A stretch of DNA of 54,261 nt from a virus. Shown piece by piece: positions 9,739 through 53,640 of this stretch. Position 1 is the first letter of the stretch. Each line of letters begins with the position of its first letter. The translations under genes and the position numbers were made by a program. The notes below the pieces were generated by a model that saw only the letters and a list, made by a program, of their open reading frames with translations, was not told the origin of the DNA and searched no databases. The DNA lies in IMG/VR virus record IMGVR_UViG_3300048822_000004, positions 1 through 54,261 of that record. One strand, given 5' to 3'.

Positions 9739-10123
9739 GACTTGGTACGCCAAACTTAAGAAAGACGGATTTAAGGATATAGAACAGGATGAAGACAATC
9801 TAAAGGTATGGTCTAATGTATTTATAAGACCAGATGCCAATGTAAAGAACAGAAATGACTACAACGCCAGACCTAAAAGTGTAAGACAAAAGAAAGATGA
9901 ATTCGAAGCAAAAAGAGACTATTACTATTACGCAGAACATTTCCTCACAAACCATAAATTCCAATCCGAAAGAGAAAGAATTATATGGGAATATCACGTC
10001 CATGGAGTTAGTGCTCGTAACACATCTAGACTATTAGAGAAAGTAAAGATTAACATTAGTAAATCAGCAGTGAACGATATAGTAAAGAAACTCCAAATAA
10101 TCATGAAAGACCAGCTAAAGTGA
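9710..10123 (+). CDS. HTH-containing protein, possible small terminase or regulator
   Basis: GTG start at 9710. 137 residues, rich in Lys, Asn and Tyr. Near the C-terminus is a helix-turn-helix-like stretch (YHVHGVSARNTSRLLEKV... KSAVNDIVKKLQ). DNA-binding small terminase subunits and phage regulators have such elements, and TerL follows about 2 kb downstream. No other TerS candidate stands out. The stop overlaps the next start (GTGA). Confidence 0.5.
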   Translation: MAKPTKQLLKTWYAKLKKDGFKDIEQDEDNLKVWSNVFIRPDANVKNRNDYNARPKSVRQKKDEFEAKRDYYYYAEHFLTNHKFQSERERIIWEYHVHGVSARNTSRLLEKVKINISKSAVNDIVKKLQIIMKDQLK

Positions 10124-10404
10124 TAAAAGAAATAGGCGAAAATATAGAGAGTTTTCTTAATAAAAAAATAATTAAGATTAAAGGGTATGAAGAATTATTT
10201 ACACTCCATGGTGTATTTCGTTCAATTTCTTGGGATTCAACAGAGATGAGGTTCTTAAGTTATCCTAAAAAAGACTACTATGTGTTTATAACAATTTCAG
10301 ACCAAGAACTTATTGCCGCTAACAATATGTTACGAACACTTAACCACTATATAGAAATGCCTAATTTAACATGCCTAGAAAAAATTATTTATGACATCGA
10401 CTGA
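10120..10404 (+). CDS. Small protein ending in the LEKIIYDI tail
   Basis: 94 residues from a GTG that overlaps the previous stop. The core is not recognised; it has alternating hydrophobic strands (LFTLHGVFRSISW, YYVFITISD) and a helix. It ends in CLEKIIYDID, the C-terminal motif shared with proteins ending at 22355, 27306, 25191, 42963 and near 53412. The last codons contain the ATG of the following GNAT gene (10391), so the two are coupled. Confidence 0.7.
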   Translation: MIKEIGENIESFLNKKIIKIKGYEELFTLHGVFRSISWDSTEMRFLSYPKKDYYVFITISDQELIAANNMLRTLNHYIEMPNLTCLEKIIYDID

Positions 10405-10816
10405 GTTTTCAGAACATTACGACATCAGGGACTATCAGCCTTCAGATAAGAACTTCGTGCTTGCGACATTTCTACGAGGTGTTTATTACGGAGATAGTTG
10501 GTTTTCTCAAATCCGTAAAGACATATTTATGGATAACTATAAGCGTATAGCGGAATTCGCTATTGACTCAGGTAAGGTAACAGTTAAGGTGGCATGTCTG
10601 CGCGAAGACCCTGATATCATTATAGGTTATAGCATCCTTAGTTCAGACTTTCAAGCTGTTTCGTGGGTGTATGTAAAGAAAGCTTGGAGACTCAAAGGAA
10701 TAGCCAAAAGCCTTTTACCGAAATTTCCACAGTATATCACACACTTGACTAAGCTAGGACAAGAACTAATGCCTAAACTACCAACAGCGACTTTTAACCC
10801 ATTCTATGGCGCATAA
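10391..10816 (+). CDS. GNAT-type acetyltransferase
   Basis: 141 residues. The acetyl-CoA-binding segment is visible as WVYVKKAWRLKGIAKSLLP, and a central strand reads VACLREDPDIIIGYSIL. Such small GNAT proteins are frequent near terminase genes of podovirus-like phages; their targets are unknown. The start codon lies inside the tail codons of the preceding gene. A second GNAT-like protein and a truncated copy occur at 35.4-36.0 kb. Confidence 0.72.
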   Translation: MTSTEFSEHYDIRDYQPSDKNFVLATFLRGVYYGDSWFSQIRKDIFMDNYKRIAEFAIDSGKVTVKVACLREDPDIIIGYSILSSDFQAVSWVYVKKAWRLKGIAKSLLPKFPQYITHLTKLGQELMPKLPTATFNPFYGA

Positions 10817-11006
10817 AATGGGAGTAGCTCAACTCGACCCAGGAGCATTGGCTAATGCGGCGGCCAATCAAAATCAGAAACTTAACAACAATCTGGGAAC
10901 TATAGTAACAACTCCTAAGTTTTGGAAAGAACAAGTAGAAAAACAGAGAATGGATGATTTCATAAAACAATGCGAAACAGTAACAAAGGAGACAAACAAT
11001 GTCTAA
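10806..11006 (+). CDS. Hypothetical 66-residue protein
   Basis: Overlaps the GNAT gene end by 11 bases and has no clear ribosome site. The C-terminal segment KQRMDDFIKQCETVTKET resembles the segment shared by the proteins at 11479, 11706 and 11951 (RVMREFVNKCAEIKG type). It may be a distant member of that small family. The function is unknown. Confidence 0.5.
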   Translation: MAHKMGVAQLDPGALANAAANQNQKLNNNLGTIVTTPKFWKEQVEKQRMDDFIKQCETVTKETNNV

Positions 11007-11262
11007 GTTTTTTAAGTCCAAGAAAGTAAACCTAAATCCCGCTAAGCCAGAGCCGCGTAAGCTAGAAGATATTACGAAAGAGCTTAACAATGAATGCTGG
11101 GCTTTAGGTCAACTAGAATATCAGATCTACGTTCTTCAGCAAGAAGCAGAACGAAAAAACAAGAAAATCCAAGAGCTTAACTACGAAGGAGCTAGCCGTA
11201 AAGAATTAGACTCTAAAGCCGCCGCTGACGCCCCTAAGCAAGAGGTGTCGAATGGGAACTAA
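10999..11262 (+). CDS. Hypothetical coiled-coil protein
   Basis: 87 residues with GGAG upstream. The basic N-terminus (MSKFFKSKKVNLNP) is followed by a charged helix (LEYQIYVLQQEAERKNKKIQEL) likely to form a coiled coil, and an Ala-rich tail. It overlaps its neighbours at both ends within the small-gene string before TerL. No family is recognised. Confidence 0.6.
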   Translation: MSKFFKSKKVNLNPAKPEPRKLEDITKELNNECWALGQLEYQIYVLQQEAERKNKKIQELNYEGASRKELDSKAAADAPKQEVSNGN

Positions 11263-11479
11263 AATCAAGGAAGCAACATTGTCAGGGCCTATTCATACGA
11301 TTAAATCAGGTCATATCAAGAAAGAGCTTAGTAACCAAAATTCACCTACCCATAAGGCGGTAGGCATGGAGCTTAAGTCCATTGAAGGCGGCACTTTCGT
11401 AGAGCTTACTGTACAGCACTCAAAAGAGAAAATCCTTGTGCCTTATACAGACTTTCGCAATTTAGTCCCCGGTGAATAA
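11252..11479 (+). CDS. Hypothetical small beta-rich protein
   Basis: 75 residues with AGGTG upstream, overlapping both neighbours. The C-terminal half (MELKSIEGGTFVELTVQHSKEKILVPYTDFRNLV) looks like a small beta barrel, the type seen in several phage proteins that accompany packaging genes. No catalytic motif is visible. The ATG overlaps the upstream stop, implying coupled translation. Confidence 0.6.
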   Translation: MGTKIKEATLSGPIHTIKSGHIKKELSNQNSPTHKAVGMELKSIEGGTFVELTVQHSKEKILVPYTDFRNLVPGE

Positions 11480-11706
11480 TGAACAGTAAAGACATGATAC
11501 GCGGTCTTATAGATTCATATAATGGCGAAACTAAAGACGAAAGAGTTATGCGAGAATTCGTTAATAAATGCGCTGAAATTAAAGGCTTAACGCAAATTCC
11601 AGAGCCTGAAAAAGAATGCCTTAAAAGCATAATTTATAAGCCTAACCCATTCTTCGAAGAATTAAAAAGGAACAGTGAAACGAAAGTTAAACCCACAGGT
11701 GAATAA
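11479..11706 (+). CDS. Tandem paralog 1 (ERVMREFVNKCAEIKG family)
   Basis: 75 residues. Residues 20-40 include DERVMREFVNKCAEIKGL, which is repeated exactly in the next gene. The flanks differ, so selection seems focused on this helix. The start overlaps the upstream stop (TAATG). It is the first of at least three adjacent paralogs just before TerL. Function unknown. Confidence 0.65.
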   Translation: MNSKDMIRGLIDSYNGETKDERVMREFVNKCAEIKGLTQIPEPEKECLKSIIYKPNPFFEELKRNSETKVKPTGE

Positions 11707-11954
11707 TGGCTAATCAATCCGCGAACAGTATGATAGAAGCGCTTAAAAAAATTTATGGCGCAGGTGAGACGGAAGACGAAAGAGTTATGCGAGAATTCGT
11801 TAATAAATGTGCAGAGATTAAAGGTTTGCCACAGACTCCAGCACCTGAAAATTGGTTCTTGAAAGACATATTTAATAGAGGCAATCCACTTCTTAAAATA
11901 ATTAATGATGAAGCTAAAGGCTCTTATGTGCCAGTTCCAATAAAGGTAAAATGA
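11706..11954 (+). CDS. Tandem paralog 2 (ERVMREFVNKCAEIKG family)
   Basis: 82 residues. It carries the same DERVMREFVNKCAEIKGL block as the preceding gene, with a different C-terminus (NPLLKIINDEAKGSYVPVP). The DNA of the shared block is nearly identical, indicating recent tandem duplication. It overlaps both neighbours. Unknown function. Confidence 0.65.
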   Translation: MANQSANSMIEALKKIYGAGETEDERVMREFVNKCAEIKGLPQTPAPENWFLKDIFNRGNPLLKIINDEAKGSYVPVPIKVK

Positions 11955-12103
11955 GCTATTCTGTAACACCTCCAACAAGGAAAGACAGGCTACTTCAAAA
12001 TTTCATTAATCGCTGCTTAGAAGTAACTAAAAGAGATAGGGTCATAAAAGCCTTTTTAAAACCAAATGAAAAGAATAGTAAAAGATCAGACGACAAAAAC
12101 TGA
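11951..12103 (+). CDS. Tandem paralog 3, 50-residue divergent copy
   Basis: A short frame starting at ATG 11951 (ATGA overlap with the previous stop) and ending at 12103, inside the TerL start region. Its segment KDRLLQNFINRCLEVTKRDR aligns with ERVMREFVNKCAEIKG of the two genes before it. It is probably real, but short and overlapping TerL by 38 bases. Confidence 0.5.
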   Translation: MSYSVTPPTRKDRLLQNFINRCLEVTKRDRVIKAFLKPNEKNSKRSDDKN

Positions 12104-13514
12104 AGTAGATCAGTTTTGGCACCGTAAGTTCAATATAACTTCCTTTCTGTTCGATAGACAGCTCGCATTCGTTCAAGACCCTAGCCCATTTAAAGTAGCG
12201 GTTTGTAGCCGCAGAGCCGGTAAGACCGTTGCCTGCGCAGCCCACCTAGTGCATACAGCTATTAATAATCCAAATACTACAAGTCTTTACATAACACTTA
12301 CTGGTACTAGCGGTAAGCGTATCATCTGGAAAGAATTTAAGAATTTACTAAGGAATTTTAAACTAGAGAATGACGCTAAACTCAACGAAGTAGAACTATC
12401 AGTGACATTTCGTAACGGCGCAGTGATTTACGTAGTAGGAGCAGGAGATTCAGCAGAAATCAATAAATACAGGGGTTTAGCTCTTAAACTTGTGTATATC
12501 GATGAGTGCCAGTCCTTTAAAGAATACATCAAGGATTTAATAGACGACGTAATAGGCCCAGCTCTCATAGATTATGCAGGCGAACTATGCCTTATAGGAA
12601 CACCAGGGCCAGTGCCGGCAGGGTATTTCCATGAATGCGCAGCCGAAGGTAGCGATAGTGTATGGTCTAGACACGCATGGACTTTTTGGGATAACCCGTT
12701 TATACCAATCACATCTAAAAAGACCCATCAAGAAGTATTCGACAGAGAGATGAAGCGTCGAGGTATATCGGACCTTAATAATCCTAGTGTTCAAAGGGAG
12801 TGGTTTGGTAAGTGGAAGATCGATGATGACTCATTAATACTTCATTACCGAGAAGCCAAGAATAACTACGATGTCCTGCCTCCCCATAAGCAGTATAATT
12901 ACATAATGGGCGTAGACGTGGGCTTTAGAGATGCCGACGCTATAGCCATTCTGGCATGGTCTGAGGCTGATAAGGTAACGTATCTAATCGAAGAAATCAT
13001 TACTACGAAGCAAGACACCACTGCATTAGCTACTCAAATCAAGGACTTAGAGAAGAAGTACAAGATCGATAAAATCGTTATGGATATGGGAGCACTTGGT
13101 AAAAAGATAGGCGAGGAATTCATTAGACGATGGCACATACCAGTAGAACCTGCTGATAAGACCAGGAAGATAGAAAACCTGGCCTTGTTAGATGATGCCC
13201 TTAGGAATGGTACTTTCAAAGCCAAAACAAAGTCTACATTCGCTCAAGATACCTATAAGGTAGAAAAAGACGTAGATAAATCCACGCCTGAAAAAACAGT
13301 CATAAGTACAAGATTTCACTCAGATATAATTGATTCTGTGCTTTATGCTTTCAAAATCAGTCCTGCCTATGCTTACGTAAAACCTACAGAGAAGCCTAAG
13401 TATGGTACGAAAGAATGGGCAGATGCCGAAAATGATGCCATGTGGGAAAAAGAACTCGAGGGATATAAGCAGGATGATTCCTACCAGAAATGGCTAAGCG
13501 GAGAAGAAAACTAA
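12066..13514 (+). CDS. terL: Terminase large subunit
   Basis: 482 residues. The ATPase domain has Walker A CSRRAGKT (about residues 47-54) and Walker B LVYIDECQSF. The RNase H-like nuclease domain has its acidic residues in MGVDVGFRDADAIAIL, IVMDMGALG and FHSDIIDSVLYAF. It powers genome packaging into the prohead and cuts DNA. The start lies within the preceding small frame. The late promoter-like repeat at 13540 follows directly after it. Confidence 0.95.
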   Translation: MKRIVKDQTTKTEVDQFWHRKFNITSFLFDRQLAFVQDPSPFKVAVCSRRAGKTVACAAHLVHTAINNPNTTSLYITLTGTSGKRIIWKEFKNLLRNFKLENDAKLNEVELSVTFRNGAVIYVVGAGDSAEINKYRGLALKLVYIDECQSFKEYIKDLIDDVIGPALIDYAGELCLIGTPGPVPAGYFHECAAEGSDSVWSRHAWTFWDNPFIPITSKKTHQEVFDREMKRRGISDLNNPSVQREWFGKWKIDDDSLILHYREAKNNYDVLPPHKQYNYIMGVDVGFRDADAIAILAWSEADKVTYLIEEIITTKQDTTALATQIKDLEKKYKIDKIVMDMGALGKKIGEEFIRRWHIPVEPADKTRKIENLALLDDALRNGTFKAKTKSTFAQDTYKVEKDVDKSTPEKTVISTRFHSDIIDSVLYAFKISPAYAYVKPTEKPKYGTKEWADAENDAMWEKELEGYKQDDSYQKWLSGEEN

Positions 13515-13539
13515 TCAATTAAATACTATAGCACACGTT

Positions 13540-13557
13540 GGACTGTATCGCAATATA
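13540..13557 (+). promoter_or_regulatory. Late-block repeat, copy 1 (GGACTGTATCGCAATATA)
   Basis: One of five near-identical intergenic copies in the window. It lies 19 bases before the TTG start at 13576, which opens the head gene block. Position before gene blocks suggests a phage-specific promoter or activator site. It does not match sigma70 or sigma54 spacing. Confidence 0.6.
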
Positions 13558-13575
13558 GAACATTTGAGGTGAGCT

Positions 13576-13824: not shown

Positions 13825-13826
13825 TA

Positions 13827-14557: not shown

Positions 14558-14558
14558 A

Positions 14559-18247: not shown

Positions 18248-18256
18248 GGAAAAACA

Positions 18257-19312
18257 ATGAAAGTAACACCCGTAGCATCACCATTAGCTGTTCAGCAAAC
18301 CAGTACTAACACAGCAGCGGTATCGGACGCCAAAGCCCGTGCCGTAGCAATACTGTCAGGTAAAGCCGCACCGACCCAAGGACAAGCCCAGGAAACACCT
18401 GTCAGTAACCCTAATCAAGTCTCAGCTGAGGAATTATCGGCTATACGCGCTCCTACAGAAGCCCCCGCTACCCAGGTAGAGGCCCAGGCTGAAGCACCTC
18501 AAGGCGAGGCTGATAAGCATCCAGAAGTACCAGAGAAAAAAGACCCAAAGGCAAGTCAGGAATGGGCTAGACTTGCCCGCCAAGAACGTATCCTGCGCCA
18601 GCGCGCCAAGGAACAGGATCAGAAGTTCCGACAACGTGAAGAAGCAATTAAGGCCAGAGAGGCCGAAGCCGCCTCTAAAGCCGATTTATATCAGAAAGGG
18701 TATATTTCAGTTGAGGAGCTAAAGAGAGATCTATTAAGCGCTACTGAGAAGGCAGGACTTAGTTACGATGAAGTAGCTCAGCAGATGTTGAACACTACTA
18801 AAATCGATCCTAGACTTCAGTCTCATATAGACCGCTTACAAGCCAAAATCGACAGCTTAGAGAAAGCCACTATTGAAGGCAACGAAAGAGCCACGAAACA
18901 ACAACAGGACTCCTACAACGCAGCTGTTAAACAAATCAAGACTGATGTAGCTAACTTAGTGAAAACAGACCCGAATTTCGAAACTGTTGCTAAGACTAAC
19001 AGTGTCAACGACGTCGTAGAACTCATTACTAGGACTTATGAGAAAGACGGCATCCTGTTGACAGTGGAAGAAGCCGCTCAGGAAGTCGAAAATTATCTTA
19101 TCGATGAAGCATTGAAATTAACTCGTATCGAAAAAATTAAGCGCAAGCTCCAGCCTATGGCCAATAGTTCTGGTGAGAAGACAGCGCAATCCGCAGCTAC
19201 AAAAGGGGCCGCTCAACCCCAAATGAAAACCTTGACTAACGCCGTATCTAGTACTCGGAAGCTGAGTGCCAGGGAACGCGCCTTGTTAGCATTTCGAGGT
19301 GAGCTTAAATAG
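18257..19312 (+). CDS. Scaffolding-type protein
   Basis: 351 residues with AAGGA upstream. Disordered Ala/Pro/Gln/Glu-rich N-terminus, then a long charged coiled coil (QEWARLARQERILRQRAKEQ onward), and a basic helical C-terminus (ARERALLAFRGELK). Placement between portal and major capsid protein and this composition are typical of scaffolds that direct prohead assembly. There is no protease motif. The assignment rests on context and composition. Confidence 0.8.
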   Translation: MKVTPVASPLAVQQTSTNTAAVSDAKARAVAILSGKAAPTQGQAQETPVSNPNQVSAEELSAIRAPTEAPATQVEAQAEAPQGEADKHPEVPEKKDPKASQEWARLARQERILRQRAKEQDQKFRQREEAIKAREAEAASKADLYQKGYISVEELKRDLLSATEKAGLSYDEVAQQMLNTTKIDPRLQSHIDRLQAKIDSLEKATIEGNERATKQQQDSYNAAVKQIKTDVANLVKTDPNFETVAKTNSVNDVVELITRTYEKDGILLTVEEAAQEVENYLIDEALKLTRIEKIKRKLQPMANSSGEKTAQSAATKGAAQPQMKTLTNAVSSTRKLSARERALLAFRGELK

Positions 19313-19319
19313 TATAGCC

Positions 19320-19340: not shown

Positions 19341-19403
19341 CTATATACCATGCTTGGCATAGGGTTAAGTATTGGAAATAATTAAATAAATAAAGGAAAT
19401 ACA

Positions 19404-22133: not shown

Positions 22134-22355
22134 ATGGCTGAATTCAAAGTAGACGATACGGTAATAATGGTACACGCGGATAACTTATCACTTGTGGCTA
22201 GAGATCTTATTGGCGTTCCTCACCAAGTCATAGGAGTGATAGGAGATTGCTTATTAATTGACCCTCAAGATAAAAACCAAGGCTGGTTTGCATGGAGATT
22301 CATAAAAGCTACGGAATTGTCTCAACTCGAGAAAATAATTTACGATATCCCCTAA
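22134..22355 (+). CDS. SH3-like small protein with LEKIIYDI tail
   Basis: ATG 22134 is chosen (AGGA at 22121-22124); an ATG at 22125 has no room for a ribosome site. The 73-residue core (FKVDDTVIMVHADNLSLVA, then GWFAWRF) matches in pattern the N-terminal domain of the dATP/dGTP hydrolase fusion at 3787. It ends in QLEKIIYDIP, the shared tail. Six bases after the stop the next GATAAG promoter region begins. Function unknown. Confidence 0.72.
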   Translation: MAEFKVDDTVIMVHADNLSLVARDLIGVPHQVIGVIGDCLLIDPQDKNQGWFAWRFIKATELSQLEKIIYDIP

Positions 22356-22409: not shown

Positions 22410-23513
22410 ATGATTATCAAGGATTTTAAAGAGAGTCTTCAGTATCTAACAAAAGCAGAACTAACCCCGTTCGTGTGGGGACATGCCGGGATTGGCAAGA
22501 CTGAGAGCATTAAGCAGTGGGCAGTAGAGAAAGGATATAAATTCTTTCCTTTCTACTTAGGTACGATGTCTGATACAGGCGATATACTAGGGCTTGCAGA
22601 GTTTACGAAACGAGCCAAGGGTGGTAAATCCACTGATTTCGCGCCTCCTGGATGGCTTCTTGATATGATAGACTACTGCAATGAAAACCCTGATTCTGGC
22701 GCAGTAGTCTTCCTAGATGAGTTTAACCGCGCTAGGAAAGATATCATGAACGGTATGTTCTCGTTTGCACTGGATAAGCGCTTCCATACTATACAGTTAC
22801 CTAAGAACTGTCATGTAATCGCTGCTGGTAATCCTCCTACGGATGAGTACTGCACTACTGATGTTGATGAAGCCGCTCTTATGGCTCGTTTCGTACATAT
22901 CAAGCTTGAGCCTTCGATTCAAGAATGGGTAGAGTACGCTAAAGACAGAAGCTTAGATAGTAATCTCATAGGTTTTATTCAAGATCAGCCTAATCTATTA
23001 GAAGACAAGCGATCAGAGTTTCTGCTGCCTATCAAGGTGGATCGTCGCGCCTACTCACGATTAGATAAGTTATTCAAGCTAAATACACCGGCGCATCTCA
23101 TGGAAAGCCTTATGCCTGGCATTATCGGTCTTGAAAGAACTATTGCTTATAAGCAATATCTCAAGGAAATCGATAAGCCGCTTACAGGAGAGCAAGTCCT
23201 TCGCCATGAAAGACCTGATCTCATCGAGAAGTGGAGTAATTCCGATAACGTAGCGGCTTCATTTCTTAACATCACCTGTGATAGCCTTGTCGAGGTACTT
23301 AATAAAAGAGATGCAGCTAAAGACCTCTTAAAGGCAGATGAAAAGAGTAATCTCATGTGGTTCTTGTCTGCAGCTCCTAAGGATATCTCCTATCGAGTTA
23401 TATACACGTTAGTGACCTCTAATAACTCATTATTTAAGAACTTCTTTACTGATGAGAAGTACGAGAAACAAATCGCGGAGCTTACGTTAGCCGCTAAAGG
23501 AAAGACTAAATAA
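22410..23513 (+). CDS. MoxR-family AAA+ ATPase
   Basis: 367 residues with AAGGAG upstream. Walker A is GHAGIGKT (about residues 25-32), Walker B AVVFLDEFNR, sensor region VIAAGNPP; the C-terminal half is helical. MoxR ATPases act as chaperones with a VWA partner, and such a partner is the next gene, overlapping by one base. The pair heads an operon with an Ala-rich repeat protein and a protease. Role in the phage is unknown. Confidence 0.9.
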   Translation: MIIKDFKESLQYLTKAELTPFVWGHAGIGKTESIKQWAVEKGYKFFPFYLGTMSDTGDILGLAEFTKRAKGGKSTDFAPPGWLLDMIDYCNENPDSGAVVFLDEFNRARKDIMNGMFSFALDKRFHTIQLPKNCHVIAAGNPPTDEYCTTDVDEAALMARFVHIKLEPSIQEWVEYAKDRSLDSNLIGFIQDQPNLLEDKRSEFLLPIKVDRRAYSRLDKLFKLNTPAHLMESLMPGIIGLERTIAYKQYLKEIDKPLTGEQVLRHERPDLIEKWSNSDNVAASFLNITCDSLVEVLNKRDAAKDLLKADEKSNLMWFLSAAPKDISYRVIYTLVTSNNSLFKNFFTDEKYEKQIAELTLAAKGKTK

Positions 23514-24673
23514 TGGAATTCAAGAATAAAGATGTCGTAAGCCAAGCCATAGTAAATCTATTCGAATCGGAAAGATTCTATGCTGAGCTGATATGTCAGA
23601 TGCGTAGATTCGTATCTGATAAGATACGAACGGCAGGGGTTTGTGTTAAAGATCAAATCGAACTCCACATAAACCCTGAGTTCTTCGAAAGTCTTACATT
23701 ACAAGAACGTGTATCTGTTCTTAAGCATGAATGCGAGCACATCCTTAGAGACCATATCGGCAGGGCTAAGGAACTAGCCCCAGATATTTACGATAATAAA
23801 AAGAAGGACTTAGAAGACAATATCATTAACAACATGAAGCACAAGACTTTAAATATTTCAATGGATTGTGCCATCAACGGCAATATGACTAACCTACCAG
23901 AAGGAGGAGTATTTCCTAAGCAATTCGATCTTGAGAATGGCCAAACCATGGAATGGTATCTAGCGCAGCTAAAAGACAATGAAAAAGCAAAGCAGCTCAT
24001 GAAATTCGATGATCATGAGCTTTGGGGCGAATCAGATGGTGATAAGGAAATCCTTAAAGAGAAGGTTCGTCAAGCCGTTAATAAGGCTGCTAAAAGTACT
24101 CGTGCGGCAGGTAAAATGACCGCAAACAATGAGCTACTCGTATCAGAACTCAACAAAGCCGTGGTGAATTGGCGCCAACAGCTCAAACGGTTCGCTGCAC
24201 GTACTATCGAGACTGCCCTAGACACTAGTAAAAAGAAAAGGAATCGCCGCTACGGTATATTATTTCCGGGTACTATAAAAACAGAAAGTCTTCATATAGG
24301 AGTTGCTATAGATACTTCTGGTAGCGTTTCTGATGAAAGTTTGAAACAATTCATGAGTGAAATCGGCAATATAGCTAAATATGCCAAAGTAACGGTTATT
24401 GAAGCAGACACAGAGATCAAGAACAGTTATATTTATGATCCTAAAAAGAAATACAGAGTCTCAGGCAGAGGCGGAACTGCTTACAAACCTGCCTTCGACT
24501 TCTTCAACGATAAAAATAATGAAGTAGACGCCATGATTTACTTTGGGGATATGGATTGTTATGATACAGAGGCTTTAATTAAGCCTAAATACCCTGTGTT
24601 ATGGGCTATAGTAGGAGGTCAAAATCCTCCAGCTAATTTCGGAGCACAAATCAGAATAGAGGTTAAAGATTAA
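23513..24673 (+). CDS. VWA-domain protein with HExxH peptidase-like N-terminus
   Basis: 386 residues. The N-terminal domain has HECEH (residues 72-76) and NISMDCAINGNM, as in VWA-containing metallopeptidase-like proteins (DUF2201 type). The C-terminal domain has a MIDAS pattern: IDTSGSVS near 266, RGGTAY near 322, FGDMD near 346. It pairs with the upstream MoxR ATPase, a known ATPase-adaptor combination. Whether the HExxH is active cannot be told. The stop overlaps the next start. Confidence 0.87.
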   Translation: MEFKNKDVVSQAIVNLFESERFYAELICQMRRFVSDKIRTAGVCVKDQIELHINPEFFESLTLQERVSVLKHECEHILRDHIGRAKELAPDIYDNKKKDLEDNIINNMKHKTLNISMDCAINGNMTNLPEGGVFPKQFDLENGQTMEWYLAQLKDNEKAKQLMKFDDHELWGESDGDKEILKEKVRQAVNKAAKSTRAAGKMTANNELLVSELNKAVVNWRQQLKRFAARTIETALDTSKKKRNRRYGILFPGTIKTESLHIGVAIDTSGSVSDESLKQFMSEIGNIAKYAKVTVIEADTEIKNSYIYDPKKKYRVSGRGGTAYKPAFDFFNDKNNEVDAMIYFGDMDCYDTEALIKPKYPVLWAIVGGQNPPANFGAQIRIEVKD

Positions 24674-25191
24674 TGAGTGACAATAAAAAAATTGATTATT
24701 TCGAAAAGATAGGAAAACTACTCAATAAATCGCCAAAACCGATATATATTGCTTTTGCGCTGTACTGCGCTAGAGACCAACTCCATAATATTAAAGATAA
24801 AAACATCTACAATGAATGCCATAAAGCCTTAGCTATTACAGAGGCTTTTATTAAAGGCCAAGCCACTCAATCAGAAATAGAAGCAGCCTACAGCGCGGCC
24901 TACAGCGCGGCCAGCAGCTCGGCCTACAGCTCGGCCCACACGGCCCACGCGGCCAACAGCGCGGCCCACGCGGCCAGCAGCGCGGCCCACGCGGCACACA
25001 GCGCGGCCTACAGCGCGGCCTACAGCGCGGCCTACGCGGCCTACGTGGCCTACGTGGCCTACGCGGCCTACGCGGCCCACGCGGCCCACGCGGCCTATAA
25101 CAATAAATTAGAAGAGTATTTTGAAAAATTAGAGGATATGCTACGAAATCTACACAGAATTGAAAAAATAGTGTTTAATATATGCGATTAA
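24673..25191 (+). CDS. Ala-Ala-X repeat protein, copy 1
   Basis: 172 residues. Residues 1-70 form a conserved domain (NKSPKPIYIAFALYCARDQL, NIYNECHKALAITEAF). Residues about 71-142 are nearly pure A-A-x triplets with x = Tyr, His, Ser, Asn or Val. A helical tail ends in HRIEKIVFNICD, a variant of the LEKIIYDI tail. The N-terminal pattern plus Ala repeats recalls helical Imm5-like proteins, a tentative link. Fourth position in the MoxR-VWA-protease operon is seen directly. The paralog at 42963 is almost identical outside the repeat. Confidence 0.8.
   Translation: MSDNKKIDYFEKIGKLLNKSPKPIYIAFALYCARDQLHNIKDKNIYNECHKALAITEAFIKGQATQSEIEAAYSAAYSAASSSAYSSAHTAHAANSAAHAASSAAHAAHSAAYSAAYSAAYAAYVAYVAYAAYAAHAAHAAYNNKLEEYFEKLEDMLRNLHRIEKIVFNICD
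24884..25098 (+). repeat. GC-rich GCGGCC-type codon repeat
   Basis: About 215 bases built from GCGGCC followed by TAC, CAC, AGC, AAC or GTG codons. It is far more GC-rich than its surroundings and encodes the A-A-x run. Near-palindromic units could promote slippage or recombination with the second array at 43056-43268. Confidence 0.9.
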
Positions 25192-25811
25192 TTTTAATAC
25201 TCATATTCATACCTAGCGTATCGATTGCAAAACTAAGAGTTGCAGTACTAGACACTGGCGTAGATACAGAGATAACAAACGCTCCTTTGTGCTCTAAAGC
25301 ATCTCCTGACTCTAGCAATATAAAGCACGGGACTTCAATAGTTGATTTAATTGCTAAAAATGCAGGTAAAGCTGATTATTGCATAGAGTCTTATAGAATA
25401 TATACCAATAAATGGGATAAAAAGGCTTATTTCAATGTTCTTAGGTATTTACTAAAGAATCCACCAGATATCATTAACCTCAGTATTCAAGGCACAGGAG
25501 AAAGCCCCACAGAGACTAAACTCATTAAACAACTCCTCAACAAAGGCGTGACGATATTAGTAGCGGCTGGTAACTATGGAGAAGTCCTGTCTAAAAAGTC
25601 TTGTAATGTATACCCGGCTTGTGCTGATAACAGGATAATAGTTGTAGGTACATACTCGCCTAGCAGCGATAAAGGCGACAGGATTAACATACTTACCCAT
25701 AAAGACAGTGGGTGCGTTGGAGCTTATTGTTTGTCAGGAACTAGTCAAGCCACTGCAATAGAGACTGGCCGTTTCATTAATTTCTTGAGTACTAAGGAAA
25801 ACGCCAAGTAA
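25182..25811 (+). CDS. Secreted subtilisin-like serine protease (S8)
   Basis: 209 residues with an N-terminal signal sequence (MRLILILIFIPSVSIA). The catalytic triad is visible: Asp24 in AVLDTGVD, His49 in KHGTS, Ser188 in SGTSQAT; LVAAGNYG supplies the oxyanion Asn. It is smaller than typical S8 enzymes and lacks a prodomain. The ATG lies inside the tail codons of the repeat protein gene. It should act outside the cytoplasm, an unusual phage cargo, perhaps with the MoxR-VWA module. Confidence 0.87.
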   Translation: MRLILILIFIPSVSIAKLRVAVLDTGVDTEITNAPLCSKASPDSSNIKHGTSIVDLIAKNAGKADYCIESYRIYTNKWDKKAYFNVLRYLLKNPPDIINLSIQGTGESPTETKLIKQLLNKGVTILVAAGNYGEVLSKKSCNVYPACADNRIIVVGTYSPSSDKGDRINILTHKDSGCVGAYCLSGTSQATAIETGRFINFLSTKENAK

Positions 25812-26755: not shown

Positions 26756-26927
26756 AAAGATTGAAACACCTAACTACGTAATTTTGTTAGAAGAAACTGA
26801 GGACTGTCGTTACATAGTAAGATATAAGAGATCTTCAATGGAAGAATACTCATACTTTAGCTTCCAGGATTACAAGTTCGCCAGCGAGATGTTCGACTAT
26901 AATTTAATAGCATTGGAGGGCCATTGA
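26742..26927 (+). CDS. Hypothetical small beta-rich protein
   Basis: 61 residues: VTIKKIETPNYVILLEETED, CRYIVRYKRSS, then a helix. It looks like a small alpha/beta fold. The ATG overlaps the upstream gene by 14 bases, and the stop overlaps a TTG that opens the frameshifted relic downstream. Function unknown. Confidence 0.55.
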   Translation: MVTIKKIETPNYVILLEETEDCRYIVRYKRSSMEEYSYFSFQDYKFASEMFDYNLIALEGH

Positions 26928-27020
26928 AAATCAAGAAGGGTCAAATCTACATGGATTTTAATTTCAGAGATATCTGAAAAAATAACTGAATTAGAGAGGA
27001 TTATATGGGAAATAGACTGA
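26924..27020 (+). pseudogene. Frameshifted relic of a small SH3-like gene with LERIIWEID tail
   Basis: A TTG overlapping the previous stop (TTGA) begins MKIKKGQIYMDFNF, the start of a typical small barrel protein, but stops at 26977. In the +1 frame directly after, ISEKITELERIIWEID ends with TGA at 27018-27020, a clear match to the LEKIIYDI tail. The core between start and tail is missing, so an internal deletion with frameshift is likely. Confidence 0.65.
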
Positions 27021-27094
27021 ATTATGACCAAAAAGTATATATTTTAGCTATTCTAGCCTGTTTTTTAGCTATAGGTGTGATGTGGATGAAGTAA
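27005..27094 (+). CDS. 29-residue single-pass membrane protein
   Basis: ATG 27005 has AGAGAGG in good position. The peptide MGNRLNYDQKVYILAILACF continues LAIGVMWMK: a polar start and one hydrophobic helix. The start lies within the tail codons of the relic upstream, and the end overlaps the next GTG start. Likely real; could influence host membrane or lysis. Confidence 0.5.
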   Translation: MGNRLNYDQKVYILAILACFLAIGVMWMK

Positions 27095-27306
27095 AGACCG
27101 GACAGCTCAGAATGGACCGCATATTTGGTTTATATATGGTAGGAAAAAAAGTCAACGGAGAATTCAATATATTGTGGAAATATACCGGCTATAAACAAAT
27201 AAAAGATCAACAGGTCTTTACTTTTAGTCCTCATACGCTGAGTTTAGATAAGCTCGTAGTTGATGAAGTGACATTACTAGAAAAAATCATATACGATATC
27301 CTATAA
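27082..27306 (+). CDS. Small protein with LEKIIYDI tail
   Basis: 74 residues from GTG 27082. The core (GQLRMDRIFGLYMVGKKVNG, FNILWKYTGYKQIKDQQVFT) reads as a small beta barrel. The tail is LLEKIIYDIL. It is the last gene of the accessory island before the late-block repeat at 27323. Function unknown. Confidence 0.68.
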   Translation: MDEVKTGQLRMDRIFGLYMVGKKVNGEFNILWKYTGYKQIKDQQVFTFSPHTLSLDKLVVDEVTLLEKIIYDIL

Positions 27307-42862: not shown

Positions 42863-42873
42863 TGGCTTTAAAT

Positions 42874-42962: not shown

Positions 42963-43466
42963 TTACTCATTGATGTTATAAATTATTCTTTCAATTCTGT
43001 GTAGATTTCGTAGCATATCCTCTAATTTTTCATAATACTCTTTTAATTTATTGCCTCTGGCCACGTAGGCCGCGTAGGCCGCGTAGGCCACGTAGGCCAC
43101 GTAGGCCGCGTGGGCCGCGCTGTAGGCCGCGCTGCTGGCCGCGCTGTAGGCCGCGCTGTGTGCCGCGTGGGCCGCGCTGCTGGCCGCGTAGGCCGCGTGG
43201 GCCGCGCTGCTGGCCGTGCTGCTGGCCGCGCTGTAGGCCGCGCTGTGTGCCGCGCTGTAGGCTGCTTCTATTTCTGATTGAGTGGCTTGGCCTTTAATAA
43301 AAGCCTCTGTAATAGCTAGGGCTTTATGGCATTTATTGTAGATGTTTTTATCTTTAATATTATGGAGTTGGTCTCTAGCGCAGTACAGCGCAAAAGCAAC
43401 ATATATTGGTTTTGGCGATTTATTGAGTAGGTTTTCTATTTCTTCGAAATAATCAATTTTTGCCAT
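42963..43466 (-). CDS. Ala-Ala-X repeat protein, copy 2
   Basis: 167 residues with GGAGGA before the ATG. It is nearly identical to copy 1 over residues 1-70 (NKSPKPIYVAFALYCARDQL) and in the tail (EKLEDMLRNLHRIERIIYNI). The A-A-x block differs in order and length. It is expressed from the consensus promoter at 43482-43510 on the strand opposite to the late genes. Flanking 60-bp repeats suggest it arrived as a cassette. The near-identity of copies implies recent duplication. Confidence 0.8.
   Translation of the reverse strand: MAKIDYFEEIENLLNKSPKPIYVAFALYCARDQLHNIKDKNIYNKCHKALAITEAFIKGQATQSEIEAAYSAAHSAAYSAASSTASSAAHAAYAASSAAHAAHSAAYSAASSAAYSAAHAAYVAYVAYAAYAAYVARGNKLKEYYEKLEDMLRNLHRIERIIYNINE
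43056..43268 (-). repeat. GC-rich GCGGCC-type codon repeat, second array
   Basis: About 210 bases of the same codon array as at 24884-25098, in opposite orientation. The two arrays form a dispersed inverted repeat 18 kb apart, able to pair and in principle to invert or shuffle repeat units. Confidence 0.9.
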
Positions 43467-45461: not shown

Positions 45462-45468
45462 AGGACAT

Positions 45469-45867: not shown

Positions 45868-45868
45868 T

Positions 45869-47943: not shown

Positions 47944-47949
47944 GGATAT

Positions 47950-48276: not shown

Positions 48277-48277
48277 T

Positions 48278-48634: not shown

Positions 48635-48638
48635 TGCC

Positions 48639-49069: not shown

Positions 49070-49805
49070 GATCACTAAAGACGAAATAGTATTGATGACA
49101 CTCGCGTCGGTGTGTATCATATTAGCATTATGTTTCTTTCTGACATCTTGCACTAAAGCCAAGAATGTTTCTTCTGACGCATATATACGAGATAGAGTAC
49201 TTCAGCTTAAAGGAGCGAGAGGCACATGCACTGGAATACAGGTAAAAGCTCCTAGCGGTAACGTATACACACTTACGGCTGGTCATTGCAAGGAAATCCT
49301 AGACGAGGATAACAGTGCCATGTCTATCGATGAGCAAGGCAACGAAAAAAGAATTTATATGTTAGACATAGACGAAGGTATGGATCTCATGCTTATGACG
49401 TCTCCTAACGTTAAAAGCATTGAAATAGCCAAAAAGACCATGAAACACGAGCATGTCCACACGTTGACACACGGGCATATGCATGAAACCTATCGTACGG
49501 ATGGCGAACTATTAGAGGAGCAGAAGCTTCAAGTACCTGAAGATATCGTTATTACGGAGTTAGACGCCAAACAATGTGAGGCTCGTCAATTCCACGAAAC
49601 CGTAGATGCAGGCTTTGTAATTCTTTGCGTTCGTGACTTCTACGAAACCATGATGACAGCCCAGGTATACCCTGGAAGCAGCGGCGGTCCTGTTTTAGAC
49701 GATAGTGGCAAACTAGTAGGTATAGTATCTATATCAGAAGCAGGAACTATCTATAGTGGTGCCGTACAGTTACATCAAATCCAGTCATTTCTTAAGACTA
49801 GATAA
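49056..49805 (+). CDS. Trypsin-like serine protease lipoprotein
   Basis: ATG 49056 is chosen (GAAGG five bases upstream). Residues 10-32 form a lipoprotein signal ending in LTSC (Cys32). The triad is visible: His77 in LTAGHC, Asp110 in DEGMDLMLM, Ser209 in YPGSSGGPV. About 249 residues, a chymotrypsin-fold enzyme probably anchored to the cell envelope. It is coupled to the holin-like gene, so it would be made late. Substrate unknown. Confidence 0.85.
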   Translation: MMKHKITKDEIVLMTLASVCIILALCFFLTSCTKAKNVSSDAYIRDRVLQLKGARGTCTGIQVKAPSGNVYTLTAGHCKEILDEDNSAMSIDEQGNEKRIYMLDIDEGMDLMLMTSPNVKSIEIAKKTMKHEHVHTLTHGHMHETYRTDGELLEEQKLQVPEDIVITELDAKQCEARQFHETVDAGFVILCVRDFYETMMTAQVYPGSSGGPVLDDSGKLVGIVSISEAGTIYSGAVQLHQIQSFLKTR

Positions 49806-50354
49806 TTAAAATTGTATTAAACTGTAGAAATCTACAGGCGCATTATTAACTAACGCTTCAACATATGCAGATTCGTTAAGTCCCAGCATACTACCTTCTT
49901 CAGTATTAAATGCATATGGATACATTATACTGAGCGGCTGCCCGTAAGTAAAGTCAAATATATGTCCATAATGAAATATACAATGTCCTAATTCATGGAA
50001 GACTATTTGTTCTTTAAGTATATCGCTGTCCTGTATGCTAGCCCAGTATACAGGATCTATCCTAATCTCTGCTTGAATATCGTTGTAAATACATTCTCCT
50101 ACCAAATCAGAACCTTCTATCGAAGTAGTAAATCCGGCTGACACGTAATACGTAGGAAACCCAGTCTCGGATACAAACCTTTCAAAATAAGGCTCTATAG
50201 CGGGATCTACGCCCTGAAACATAGCTATATTAGGACTTACAGGATTCCAGTAATTACAACCTGATAAAAATACTAGTAATATTAATGCGAATGCGCCGCA
50301 GGCCATCATCCAAAAAAGTGCGCGCATAAAATCGCGTTTAAATTCATCGTCCAC
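49806..50354 (-). CDS. Zinc metalloprotease-like lipoprotein (HELGH)
   Basis: 182 residues from GTG 50354. A membrane signal ends in FLSGC (Cys33). Zinc site HELGH at 120-124 with further His at 128 and 131; a later SIMYP (142-146) resembles a metzincin Met-turn, though the third ligand spacing differs from the classical HExxHxxGxxH. Its stop directly abuts the stop of the trypsin-like gene. Envelope location is inferred. Confidence 0.75.
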   Translation of the reverse strand: MDDEFKRDFMRALFWMMACGAFALILLVFLSGCNYWNPVSPNIAMFQGVDPAIEPYFERFVSETGFPTYYVSAGFTTSIEGSDLVGECIYNDIQAEIRIDPVYWASIQDSDILKEQIVFHELGHCIFHYGHIFDFTYGQPLSIMYPYAFNTEEGSMLGLNESAYVEALVNNAPVDFYSLIQF

Positions 50355-50425
50355 AAACTTCTACCTATTAGGTCGCTATTTAAAAACCCGCTTACAATGC
50401 TTGTTTAATATATCGAAAAATCATA

Positions 50426-50659
50426 TTAAGAATTCTCGTCTTTTTTAACATGTGCTGCTGACAATGCAGCTGTTTCTAATTCTTTCAAAAGTTCTTTGGC
50501 TTGCCAGATAACATCTTCGCATCCTTGCAATGGATGAATATGGGTCTCGGCTGCGCCTATGAGACGATCTAATCTTGCTATTGCTACTTCTAGCTTCGAT
50601 TCGCGTAAAGGATTATTTCTGACGGCCCAGTCAGCCCATTTAAAGCTATCCTTACTCAT
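50426..50659 (-). CDS. Hypothetical helical protein
   Basis: ATG 50659 is preferred because AGGTG lies upstream; a GTG at 50668 is possible. About 77 residues, helical (ESKLEVAIARLDRLIGAAET, VIWQAKELLKELETAAL), no cysteine pair or membrane segment. It overlaps a tiny upstream frame. Function unknown. Confidence 0.55.
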   Translation of the reverse strand: MSKDSFKWADWAVRNNPLRESKLEVAIARLDRLIGAAETHIHPLQGCEDVIWQAKELLKELETAALSAAHVKKDENS

Positions 50660-50699
50660 CTTTGGCACCTGCTGATGAAAATTCTTTTGGTTTGCTCAT
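50652..50699 (-). CDS. Possible 15-residue leader peptide
   Basis: AGGAG is followed by ATG 50699, then MSKPKEFSSAGAKDE and stop, overlapping the start of the next gene. The good ribosome site suggests it is translated and may couple translation into the gene at 50659. Confidence 0.35.
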   Translation of the reverse strand: MSKPKEFSSAGAKDE

Positions 50700-50727
50700 C
50701 GCATCAACTCCTGCGTCTTAGACTGTT

Positions 50728-51114
50728 TTATTCAATAACCAAAGTAAACTCATTCACATTATCTTGTAATTCCATGAACTTTGCAAATGTTAATTCACTA
50801 TTCATAATCATATCGCCATTTTTTTGATCGCCTACCAAAATACAACCGTCGCTATCTGAGTTGTAATTCCCGATATGAATCAATATTCCAGTCACAGGCT
50901 TACCTTCAAAATCCGGTACGTTTTGAAGTTCGAAAGTCTTGTAAGGCAGCCGATTCGGCGCGTGTCTAAGGCATGTATACGTACCAGGAGCTACTTTCGG
51001 AGTTCCGTTGAAACTATGTTCTAAAGTAACTCCTATTTTATTGCCTTTATCATCATACATTTCCCCAAACACGCCATTCGGGGAAAATTCTTCTCTTTTA
51101 ATAGTAATGTCCAT
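50728..51114 (-). CDS. DUF5675-like protein
   Basis: 128 residues with AGGTGAT before the ATG. The pattern PGTYTCLRHAPNRLPYKTFE, then GILIHIGNYNSDSDGCILVG is that of the DUF5675 family found in many phages, with a His and Cys in an L,D-transpeptidase-like arrangement. Involvement in the cell wall is possible but unproven. Confidence 0.78.
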   Translation of the reverse strand: MDITIKREEFSPNGVFGEMYDDKGNKIGVTLEHSFNGTPKVAPGTYTCLRHAPNRLPYKTFELQNVPDFEGKPVTGILIHIGNYNSDSDGCILVGDQKNGDMIMNSELTFAKFMELQDNVNEFTLVIE

Positions 51115-51121
51115 ATATCAC

Positions 51122-51157
51122 CTAGTGTGTAAAAGCCGAAGCCGGTACAGGGTTCAT
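51122..51157 (-). pseudogene. Short duplicated remnant (MNPVPASAFTH)
   Basis: Behind TAATTCTAGGAGTATCTATG, a copy of the sequence that precedes the gene at 51712, an 11-codon frame ends in PVPASAFTH. The PA14 lipoprotein ends in SPVPAFAFTH. It looks like a rearrangement scar built from the neighbouring gene junction. Confidence 0.45.
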
Positions 51158-51171
51158 AGATACTCCTAGAA

Positions 51172-51447
51172 TTAAATCCCAGACCTAAACCTAGACCCAG
51201 ACCAAGACCCAGACCAAGACCCAGACCAAGACCCAGACCAAGACCCAAACCAAGACCCAAACCAAGACCCAGACCCAGACCCAGACCCAGACCCAGACTC
51301 AGACCAAGACCCAGACCCAGACCAAGACCCAGACCCAGACCTAGACCAAGACCTAGACCCAGACCCAGACTCAGACCTAGACCTAGACCCAGGCCAAGAC
51401 CCAGACCCAGACCTAGACCTATTTCGGTAACTTTTAGGACTAACCAT
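51172..51447 (-). CDS. Low-complexity Ser-Gly-Ser-Trp repeat frame
   Basis: ATG 51447 overlaps the upstream stop. After MVSPKSYRNRS it reads only SGSW, SGSG, SRS and similar for about 75 residues, then a stop. The run follows from the hexanucleotide satellite, which leaves all frames open, so coding is doubtful despite the coupled start. Confidence 0.3.
   Translation of the reverse strand: MVSPKSYRNRSRSGSGSWPGSRSRSESGSGSRSWSRSGSGSWSGSGSWSESGSGSGSGSGSWFGSWFGSWSGSWSGSWSGSWSGSRFRSGI
51179..51420. repeat. Hexanucleotide satellite (AGACCC/AGACCA/AGACCT)
   Basis: About 40 tandem copies of a six-base unit, AGACC plus C, A or T, over 242 bases, with a few variants. It has almost no stop codon in any frame. 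It lies between two 20-bp direct repeats (51155-51174 and 51710-51729). Slippage expansion is the likely origin. Confidence 0.92.
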
Positions 51448-51712
51448 TTTTAGACTTTCCAAATGATTCGATTAGATTAGTTTGTACATACCATTCTTTA
51501 GTATGAAGCTTCTGAATATCTGCGTAATTTTTATCAGACCATGTTCCTGTAGCGTATACGATGGCAGGATCTTTTAATTTAACAAAAGTTTTATTAACTC
51601 CTGTAAGTTTTCCTTCATAAAAATATCCGGCGCACATAAGTAGTACGCGTTCGCCTAACAACGCGTCTAATCCTTCTCCTTCAACTTCTTGAACTTGAAC
51701 TAGTTTTTTCAT
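51440..51712 (-). CDS. Conserved small phage protein of unknown function
   Basis: 90 residues with AGGAG before the ATG. VQEVEGEGLDALLGERVLLM, then YFYEGKLTGVNKTFVKLKDP and EWYVQTNLIESFG form an SH3/Sm-like barrel pattern I recognise from many tailed phages, always without known function. It lacks the LEKIIYDI tail. Between the PA14 lipoprotein and the satellite. Confidence 0.7.
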   Translation of the reverse strand: MKKLVQVQEVEGEGLDALLGERVLLMCAGYFYEGKLTGVNKTFVKLKDPAIVYATGTWSDKNYADIQKLHTKEWYVQTNLIESFGKSKNG

Positions 51713-51726
51713 AGATACTCCTAGAA

Positions 51727-52395
51727 TTAATGAGTGAAAGCAAAAGCCGGTACTGGAGATAAAGTTCCCAACCCGGCGTTAGTCGGCCCTTGCCACTTCA
51801 ACGTGAGGCCAATCTGGGTCGGCAAGCTTTGGAAGTACAATAGATTAAATTTATGTTGACCTGCAAATAACTGTACATTATTAACCACAGTCGTTGGATA
51901 GTCTTGAGATTCCGGCATGTTGATGAGCACGACGTTATCAATAGCTAGCTCAGAACCGTCATCACTAGACAATGAAAATGTGTAGAGTCCAGTTTCAGAT
52001 ACTGAAATATATCCATAACAATCCAAAGCCCAGTTAGTAGTACCTAATTCGGTGGCTTGCGTAGGTGTAATACCATTAAACACAGCCGTGTCTAAAGTCT
52101 GTGGATTATCAAGACTAGGTAAAACGGCATCTGTAAACAACAACGTGCCAGTAGAATACAAAGTGTCCCAGTTTACTGTGCCTTGATACGAAGCCGTAGT
52201 AATGGCATATCCATCACACGCGATGCCAGGGCTAATGCCGCTATTTCCTTGAGGGCCGGTAGCTCCTACCGCGCCTTGAGGACCTGTCGCGCCAATAGAA
52301 CCTGCAGGCCCGGTAGGACCAGCCGGAATTGACTGGAATGAGTCGTCTGCACATCCCATAAGACCTAACGCTAAAATCACTATTACTGTTTTCAT
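51727..52395 (-). CDS. Lipoprotein with collagen-like repeats and PA14 domain
   Basis: 222 residues with GGAGG before the ATG. Lipoprotein signal ends in LMGC (Cys15). Residues about 24-55 are Gly-x-y collagen-like repeats (PAGPTGPAGSIGATGPQG). The C-terminal part is PA14-like (ETGLYTFSLSSDDGSELAID, LFAGQHKFNLLYFQ, LTLKWQGP), a carbohydrate-binding beta fold. It should be displayed on the host surface, for example for superinfection exclusion or adhesion. It overlaps the helicase gene by four bases. Confidence 0.8.
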   Translation of the reverse strand: MKTVIVILALGLMGCADDSFQSIPAGPTGPAGSIGATGPQGAVGATGPQGNSGISPGIACDGYAITTASYQGTVNWDTLYSTGTLLFTDAVLPSLDNPQTLDTAVFNGITPTQATELGTTNWALDCYGYISVSETGLYTFSLSSDDGSELAIDNVVLINMPESQDYPTTVVNNVQLFAGQHKFNLLYFQSLPTQIGLTLKWQGPTNAGLGTLSPVPAFAFTH

Positions 52396-53411
52396 ATTCC
52401 CTCCTTGTGGGTCAGTTCTAACTTTAAAGGAGTTACACCGTATTCGTCAAGGAGAATCTTTTTCTGGGCATTATAATGTCTCATTAAAAACCTATGGCTT
52501 CTATCCTTGAATATAATTACTTTGGCGGATGTTTTATCTTGATACTTTCTTACTGCCCTACCTATTTGTTGCTGAAACTGACTTTTGGCTTTGCCTAGAC
52601 CTGCTATTACTACATACTCGCACGGCTTAGTGTCTATGCCCTCTCCTAGTATGCCTGTAGTACCTATGAGTGTCTTTATTCCGCCATTATTGAATTGGCG
52701 GATATAATCCCTGGATTCTTCGTCTTCGCCCGATATGAAAGGAAAGCCCGTGAGCTCAGACAGTATCTTTCCATGAGCTACCTCTTTTACTAAGCATAGC
52801 GTGGGAGCGTCTAACCGACCTAACAACGCGCCTATCATGATATTCCTGGTTTCATTATTTATTACAAGATTGTCATAGACTTCTCGGTATGTAAAGGCAT
52901 CTGTGGCTTGTTTAGGCACTTCTAGGTAATAGGCTTCTACTGGAACTATATAACCTCTAGTTATGGCATCTATATAGTTTAGCTTATAGATTACTTCTCC
53001 GCAGATGGCCTCAAAAAGCAAGGTTTCCTCGTCGTCGTTTCTGAAAGGTGTCGCAGTAAGCATGAAGCGGTAGTAGATGCCTCCCCAAACCCTTTTATTT
53101 AGCCTGCGGTACGTTTTAGCAGCTGCATGGTGTGCCTCGTCTAAGATCAATACAGAGAATCTCATGGTGAGGCTATTAAGGGCGTTAGAATCGATATTTT
53201 CAACAGTTACATAATTGAGATCAGATAGAACGTATTGCATTTGGCGTTTTATCTCAAGCGTTGGTACTACTACTAAAGTAGGAAGTCCTAGAGCTTCTAT
53301 AATCATGCGCGCTACATGGGTTTTACCAGTGCCCGTAGGCATTGATATAATGCCTCTGTGATGTTTTAATGCTGCCTTTACGGCTTTATTTTGATCTAAG
53401 TAAGGCTTCAT
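52392..53411 (-). CDS. SF2 DEAH-type helicase core (UvsW-like)
   Basis: 339 residues. Motifs in order: I PTGTGKT, II LDEAHH, III TATPF, IV-V ISGEDEES...GTTGILGEGID, VI QQQIGRAVRKY. It begins abruptly at KPYLDQNKAVKAALKHHRGI, where related helicases have an N-terminal domain. A matching domain is encoded separately at 53637-53891, with another gene in between. The ATG lies inside the tail codons of that gene. It should remodel branched DNA. Confidence 0.88.
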   Translation of the reverse strand: MKPYLDQNKAVKAALKHHRGIISMPTGTGKTHVARMIIEALGLPTLVVVPTLEIKRQMQYVLSDLNYVTVENIDSNALNSLTMRFSVLILDEAHHAAAKTYRRLNKRVWGGIYYRFMLTATPFRNDDEETLLFEAICGEVIYKLNYIDAITRGYIVPVEAYYLEVPKQATDAFTYREVYDNLVINNETRNIMIGALLGRLDAPTLCLVKEVAHGKILSELTGFPFISGEDEESRDYIRQFNNGGIKTLIGTTGILGEGIDTKPCEYVVIAGLGKAKSQFQQQIGRAVRKYQDKTSAKVIIFKDRSHRFLMRHYNAQKKILLDEYGVTPLKLELTHKEGI

Positions 53412-53640
53412 CTATGTCGTATATAATGTTTTCTAGTTTGGTGCCATGGTATTCTGTATCTTCTTTAGCAATACTGTAAGATGCCCAGCTTTCTTCCTTT
53501 GTAACTGTATTTTCAGAGTCGTATATGTACTTATAAAATACTCTATTTTCTTCTTTTTCGATACGAGTCACTTCGTATATAATAAACCTATTAACTGGCA
53601 CTTTAAACCAATAGCGAATACCGACTTTAAACTCTTTCAA
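53386..53640 (-). CDS. SH3-like gene with LENIIYDID motif, inserted in the helicase
   Basis: 84 residues from a TTG that overlaps the previous stop (TTGA). The core (FKVGIRYWFKVPVNRFIIYE, then RVFYKYIYDSENTVTK) is barrel-like. KLENIIYDID matches the shared tail but is followed by eight extra residues (EALLRSK and a preceding Asp), because the frame reads into the helicase start. It lies between the helicase N-terminal domain and core. Confidence 0.7.
   Translation of the reverse strand: MKEFKVGIRYWFKVPVNRFIIYEVTRIEKEENRVFYKYIYDSENTVTKEESWASYSIAKEDTEYHGTKLENIIYDIDEALLRSK

Follow-up and report, generated by a model that had tools for sequence, protein, structure and literature searches.

Tailed genes of the virus window

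The window analysed here is the whole 54 kb stretch of the virus record IMG/VR IMGVR_UViG_3300048822_000004. It codes for small proteins that end in a common tail, in this phage of the version LEKIIYDI, and for a MoxR-type AAA+ ATPase followed by a metallopeptidase-vWA fusion protein (table 1). The latter two genes are flanked by tailed genes, and their own products end without a tail (...AAKGKTK for MoxR and ...RIEVKD for the vWA protein).

Table 1. Features of the window carrying the tail or lying next to tailed genes.
Feature	Position	Strand	Remarks
Tailed small protein	10120..10404	+	tail NLTCLEKIIYDI at 10363-10398, with one further residue before the stop
Tailed SH3-like protein, MAEFKVDDTV start	22134..22355	+	tail ELSQLEKIIYDI at 22314-22349; alignment A4
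MoxR-type AAA+ ATPase	22410..23513	+	Pfam AAA_5, 2.9e-5; alignment A2; candidate partner machine
Metallopeptidase-vWA fusion	23513..24673	+	DUF2201_N 6.8e-22, DUF2201 4.3e-16; alignment A1; candidate partner machine
Ala-repeat helical protein	24673..25191	+	tail NLHRIEKIVFNI at 25147-25182
Small subtilase-like peptidase (S8)	25182..25811	+	Pfam Peptidase_S8 8.5e-7; adjoins Ala-repeat gene
Apparently decayed tailed gene	26924..27020	+	SH3-like head KIKKGQIY (TTG start after GGAGG), head stop 26975-26977
Tail part of the same gene	other frame than head	+	...ITELERIIWEID, ending at stop 27018-27020
Tailed small protein	27082..27306	+	tail EVTLLEKIIYDI at 27265-27300
Second Ala-repeat helical protein	42963..43466	-	tail NLHRIERIIYNI at 43007-42972; AlphaFold2 model m753bf8b0051c
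Tailed SH3-like protein	53386..53640	-	tail HGTKLENIIYDI at 53448-53413; 8 residues beyond tail

A preliminary description of this DNA had named six C-terminal tails, all of which were found and had been placed correctly. When the six frames were scanned with a relaxed motif, the motif of the window tails was found to start 9-16 residues upstream of the stop codon; two further matches lie in non-coding reverse frames. The scan also revealed a seventh tail, missed in that description: ELERIIWEID, on the + strand (L of LERII at 26991), which forms the end of a 30-codon open frame. Upstream of it GGAGG is followed by a TTG that opens KIKKGQIYMDFNFRDI in a different frame, and these two pieces look like the two ends, head and tail, of one decayed carrier gene.

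The window MoxR protein has the intact Walker A (GHAGIGKT) and Walker B (VFLDEFN) motifs of an AAA+ ATPase; of the Pfam models, AAA_5 is above its cut-off and bpMoxR below. The vWA protein carries both the zincin motif (HECEH, of the HExxH type) and the MIDAS motif (DTSGSVS). In the relatives, HECxH is intact in the members checked, and the MIDAS and Walker motifs are present in nearly all.

Some other genes of the region were recorded separately. The S8-type peptidase has a signal-like start; roughly half of the tailed phages have it, as do some untailed ones. A scaffold-like protein is encoded upstream of the capsid gene (18257-19312), and its C-terminus, LSAxERAxLAFxGELK, is very conserved across the lineage. 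The capsid gene reads as split or interrupted in G001 (L045), G005 (L113), G012 and G014, and genes of HNH or GIY-YIG type lie close to it, as might be seen after the insertion of mobile introns.

Carrier proteins

In the related phages, the tail is borne by two unrelated kinds of proteins, putative SH3-like barrels and predicted Ala-repeat helical solenoids; G008 and G011 have a third family of carriers with a related ending. The carriers outside the Ala-repeat family are about 70-100 residues long and often begin with FKxGD, a start that suggests an SH3-like fold. For most of them no family was found in Pfam or PHROGs. A KOW match is weak and limited to one of 29 non-Ala carriers (E=0.0074), and a PDB profile search with the barrels returned no match. 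The AlphaFold2 model of a barrel has its core mostly below pLDDT 70, with LEKIIY predicted as a helix at pLDDT about 80-86.

The SH3-like cores are extremely divergent, with a mean column identity of 15% (alignment A4). Weak similarity between cores, seen in 21 of 703 pairs at E<0.05, indicates that they probably constitute one very divergent and fast-evolving superfamily. The cores had been described as different from one another; this is true of the Ala-repeat family, which is separate, and probably not of the SH3-like carriers among themselves. The core of the SH3-like protein at 53386..53640 has a relative in G006, at 1197 (39% over 59 aa, E=1.7e-11), which is likewise tailed.

The Ala-repeat proteins match phrog_18326 over the N-terminal domain and the repeats (E=4.9e-13 and 4.8e-11), and the match stops short of the tail. 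The AlphaFold2 model is a helical solenoid (pTM 0.77) with a separate short terminal helix predicted at lower confidence, and a fold search with it found nothing significant. Assignment as an Imm5-like immunity protein was rejected, the Imm5_like score being 17 bits against a Pfam gathering cut-off of 25.

The SH3-like start and the weak core similarity shared by many carriers would also be expected if the tail had no partner and were no more than the best-conserved segment of a single old family, a helix packed against its own barrel, which the Ala-repeat proteins gained by fusion; AlphaFold2 packing is not confident in either direction. We consider this explanation improbable. The tail is also found on the Ala-repeat proteins, which have a different fold; its version tends to be common to both cores within a phage; barrels of the same type occur without it; and its presence follows MoxR/vWA (see below). 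The tail is absent from SH3-like proteins of MoxR-negative relatives, as collected with a permissive start pattern, which picks up unrelated proteins too.

Position of the tail and level of selection

The consensus tail consists of a hydrophobic residue and an N-cap S/T-x-x-E, followed by L-E-[KR]-[IV]-[IV]-[YFW]-[GDN]-[IV]. A profile was built from 53 curated tails and scored over all ORFs of 31 records. At a score of at least 12 there are 59 C-terminal, 9 internal and 4 reversed-profile matches; at a score of at least 18 there are 55 C-terminal matches and none of the two other kinds. The shared C-terminal tail seen in the preliminary description is thus confirmed, and the motif is far from being equally common at internal positions.

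Because the profile was trained on the same tails, a training-free comparison was added, in which the C-termini of non-homologous small proteins were compared within each genome and no motif was supplied. Strong pairs were C-terminal in four cases and internal in one for the window, and C-terminal in 52 cases and internal in none for G014. In most MoxR-positive records the tail ranks with the strongest signals; no comparable signal was obtained from the MoxR-negative records, save one borderline pair in G027. The profile counts and the training-free comparison together rule out a chance origin of the tail.

The variation at third codon positions, noticed at the outset in the window tails, was borne out by an identical-codon rate of 0.475, compared with 0.417 expected. 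At identical tail residues within a phage, the same codon is used at a rate of 0.455, and 0.404 is expected from codon usage. The synonymous codons are therefore near random, which indicates that selection acts on the protein and that the tails are not the result of recent copying; a DNA-level element or recent gene conversion is ruled out on the same grounds.

Among 56 carriers, 0 to 12 residues follow the tail. This differs from an ssrA-type C-degron, in which the signal lies at the free C-terminus, so a degradation tag of that type, one of the roles first suggested, is not supported. More generally, a tag that targets short-lived proteins of the phage for breakdown by a host protease would fit the C-terminal position and the small size of the carriers, but we regard it as very unlikely: the free end is not the signal, a generic hydrophobic degron would be neither as conserved nor as phage-specific as the tail, and the presence of the tail goes with that of a phage module.

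A motif scan of bacterial genomes found the exact motif in bacterial proteins without C-terminal enrichment. Of 111 stretches, 80 were examined; 5 of the 34 matches in longer open frames lie near the stop codon, and none represents a family of small proteins. A host C-terminal motif was rejected on this basis.

An iterated, drifting profile reached the scaffold C-termini in most relatives, as it might if the tail were a signal for packaging into the capsid, related to the scaffold C-terminal helix LSAxERAxLAF. However, they are missing from the matches of a profile built with scaffolds left out, and scaffold C-termini are nearly constant also in MoxR-negative phages that have no tails. The link was rejected as a product of profile drift, with an overlap that is mainly the general helix-cap pattern L-S/T-x-x-E, and a packaging signal appears extremely improbable.

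Versions of the tail in related phages

Each phage has its own version of the tail: LEKVIYGV in G014, LTxFEKAVLGL in G010, LCxLERLALGV in G013, MSELEKLLLNI in G015, where only the Ala-repeat family carries it, and the shorter [PLV][ST]E[LI]xxE[LF][LM] in G009. When the Ala-repeat proteins were compared with the other carriers, tails were more alike within a phage than between phages (permutation P=0.002; P=0.03 without the two most extreme phages). Excluding G009, the value is about 0.001 overall, and it weakens to 0.04-0.09 without the third-family phages and G010, so that the presence of one version on both cores of a phage is a tendency and not a rule.

G016 (L259-L264) is a distant 104 kb phage with MoxR (42% identical), vWA and an Ala-repeat protein. 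Several of its small proteins end in TELxxxLYG, with a modest excess over internal sites that is suggestive only.

Two other shared C-terminal elements were observed in the lineage. A zinc-finger-like end, C[ED]CG...H..WC, is found on small proteins, some of them SH3-like, of phages without MoxR/vWA (L143:18989-19234, L162:7861-8163, L182:11656-12219 and 12216-12539, L203:6954-7277) and also in one MoxR/vWA carrier (L010:5286-5678); it may represent a second tag comparable to the tail. The element HDWKxYxGF...YxYCxxC is present on small proteins of MoxR-negative relatives (L153:13766-13993, L175:14192-14839, L181:13896-14204).

Association of the tail with MoxR/vWA

The lineage, one of uncultured phages, comprises more than 100 virus contigs, gathered by searches with MoxR, vWA and the very conserved capsid protein; the genome sets were thus in part found through MoxR itself. 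The tail profile is present in 7 of 10 MoxR/vWA-positive loci and in 1 of 39 comparable negative loci (Fisher P=1e-5, relatedness ignored). Two of the three positive loci missed by the profile come from a single phage type (G009/G007), whose proteins share a tail version of their own. The MoxR-positive record G012 has no tail beyond one homologous family. The 14 longer MoxR/vWA-negative records, about 717 kb, contain one weak tail match, in G027, where a weak tail is carried by Ala-repeat proteins; this record is of 37 kb, and part of the genome may be missing from it.

Comparison of gene content among near-complete genomes singled out MoxR and vWA as the only genes present in 7/7 positives and 0/10 negatives; the positives were picked by MoxR status, which equals tail status only if the variants of G009 and G015 are counted, the latter being confined to one family. 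The low-complexity Ala-repeat family was masked in this comparison, yet it is present in every positive. On the portal tree, MoxR presence changes about 7 times and is not clearly more clustered than shuffled labels, so common descent alone is insufficient to explain the link between tail and MoxR. All four well-supported independent pairs on the tree are as expected or tied, too few for significance.

Tailed genes are concentrated around the pair, with 21 observed within 6 kb (10.1 expected, P=0.0004). In G014 the pair has been relocated in the genome, and there too it is surrounded by tailed genes. Tails distant from the cassette are likewise restricted to MoxR-positive phages. The divergence of the tails is correlated with that of MoxR (r=0.56), but several other genes do equally well, and coevolution therefore does not single out MoxR. 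No clear shared tails were seen in the stretches examined of N4, SBP1, PA5oct and PBS1, which have relatives of MoxR or MoxR/vWA; the machine thus does not require tails. Among cultured phages, the best terminase matches have about 25% identity, and no match to the Ala-repeat protein was found at E<=1e-5 with the low-complexity filter on. A prophage/host search of bacterial genomes revealed no capsid relative.

Some of these results would suit a tail that docks to a different partner, either from the host or another protein of the phage, with the MoxR/vWA link reflecting the same hosts or a shared accessory cassette. Tail divergence tracks not only MoxR but also the scaffold, the helicase and other genes, phages with MoxR/vWA that lie outside the lineage are without tails, and no capsid relative that would point to a host is present in the genome collection. 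We regard a different partner as possible but doubtful, since MoxR and vWA are the only phage genes that match perfectly in the comparison of gene content, even the tails far from the cassette are confined to MoxR-positive phages, and bacterial proteins show no C-terminal enrichment of the exact motif.

A putative docking helix

The preliminary description saw the tail as a tag that joins varied cargo to one partner; it made no connection with the MoxR/vWA pair next to the tailed genes. This is partly supported: it agrees with the C-terminal enrichment, the random synonymous codons, the phage-specific versions, the sharing of the tail by two unrelated core types and a presence that tracks a phage AAA+ machine. 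A short, protein-selected and phage-specific tail on unrelated cores is most simply explained by a shared docking partner, and we think it likely that the tailed proteins have one such partner; the odds that this partner is MoxR/vWA are about even.

As the tail occurs almost only in MoxR/vWA phages, we propose that it brings diverse proteins to that machine. The tail would be a short self-contained docking helix, carried by SH3-like barrels and Ala-repeat solenoids, and the phage's own machine, the MoxR AAA+ ATPase together with the metallopeptidase-vWA co-protein, is its most probable partner; the cores would be adaptors or clients. On the genomic association, we give this reading a probability of roughly 0.5. 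Docking, partner identity and outcome are here inferred. As adaptors, the cores would recognize different host or phage targets, which the tail would hand to the ATPase for remodelling or cleavage; as clients, the tailed proteins would themselves be remodelled. A modular system in which rapidly diversifying SH3-like and Ala-repeat binders, all with a phage-specific docking helix at their end, deliver targets from host or phage to MoxR/vWA for unfolding or cleavage is a more tentative suggestion, somewhat short of even chances. The tag marks candidate clients or adaptors by sequence, which supplies a list that can be tested directly and a means of finding more, and the adaptor role, if true, would account for a class of small phage proteins of unknown function.

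Comparison with known systems

MoxR-vWA pairs are widespread, and in Schitoviridae relatives of MoxR and vWA are annotated as adjacent (SBP1; N4, where gp24 and gp25 are neighbours). Group 2.2 jumbo phages are described as having a MoxR AAA+ protein and a vWA protein with an N-terminal metallopeptidase, the same kind of gene pair as in the window, and a function in the assembly of virions was proposed for it (Iyer et al. 2021, PMC7824862); the portion of the article considered here mentions no shared tail or adaptor set, whereas in the window lineage a tailed set accompanies the pair. In the MoxR-vWA ternary conflict systems of hosts, a MoxR-vWA core is served by variable components with effector-associated domains (Kaur et al. 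2020, PMC7159879). The variable components around the core resemble those of the window lineage, but the effector-associated domain is a folded domain common to effectors and core proteins of a host defence locus; the tail is a stretch of about 12 residues, belongs to a phage, is not on MoxR or vWA, and is thus not a domain of that type.

Our narrow literature queries gave no description of such a tail or of its link to MoxR/vWA, and no clients of phage MoxR-vWA pairs were found in the literature. The gene pair is already known from jumbo phages and a shared docking motif is a known principle; the tail is apparently new. T4 gp33/gp55 and the SSB tips have short shared C-terminal peptides for clamp or SSB binding. 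Like the tail, these are short C-terminal peptides on unrelated proteins that serve one hub, but they have no sequence resemblance to it, and no sliding clamp was noticed in the window. Poxvirus ankyrin-repeat/PRANC proteins dock to host SCF ubiquitin ligases. Like the proposed phage system, they combine variable repeat cores, one C-terminal docking motif and a protein-processing machine; this is an analogy and not homology, and the candidate partner here is probably phage-encoded. If the adaptor role is true, the tailed proteins would be a phage counterpart of such virus families, which plug many binders into one protein-processing machine.
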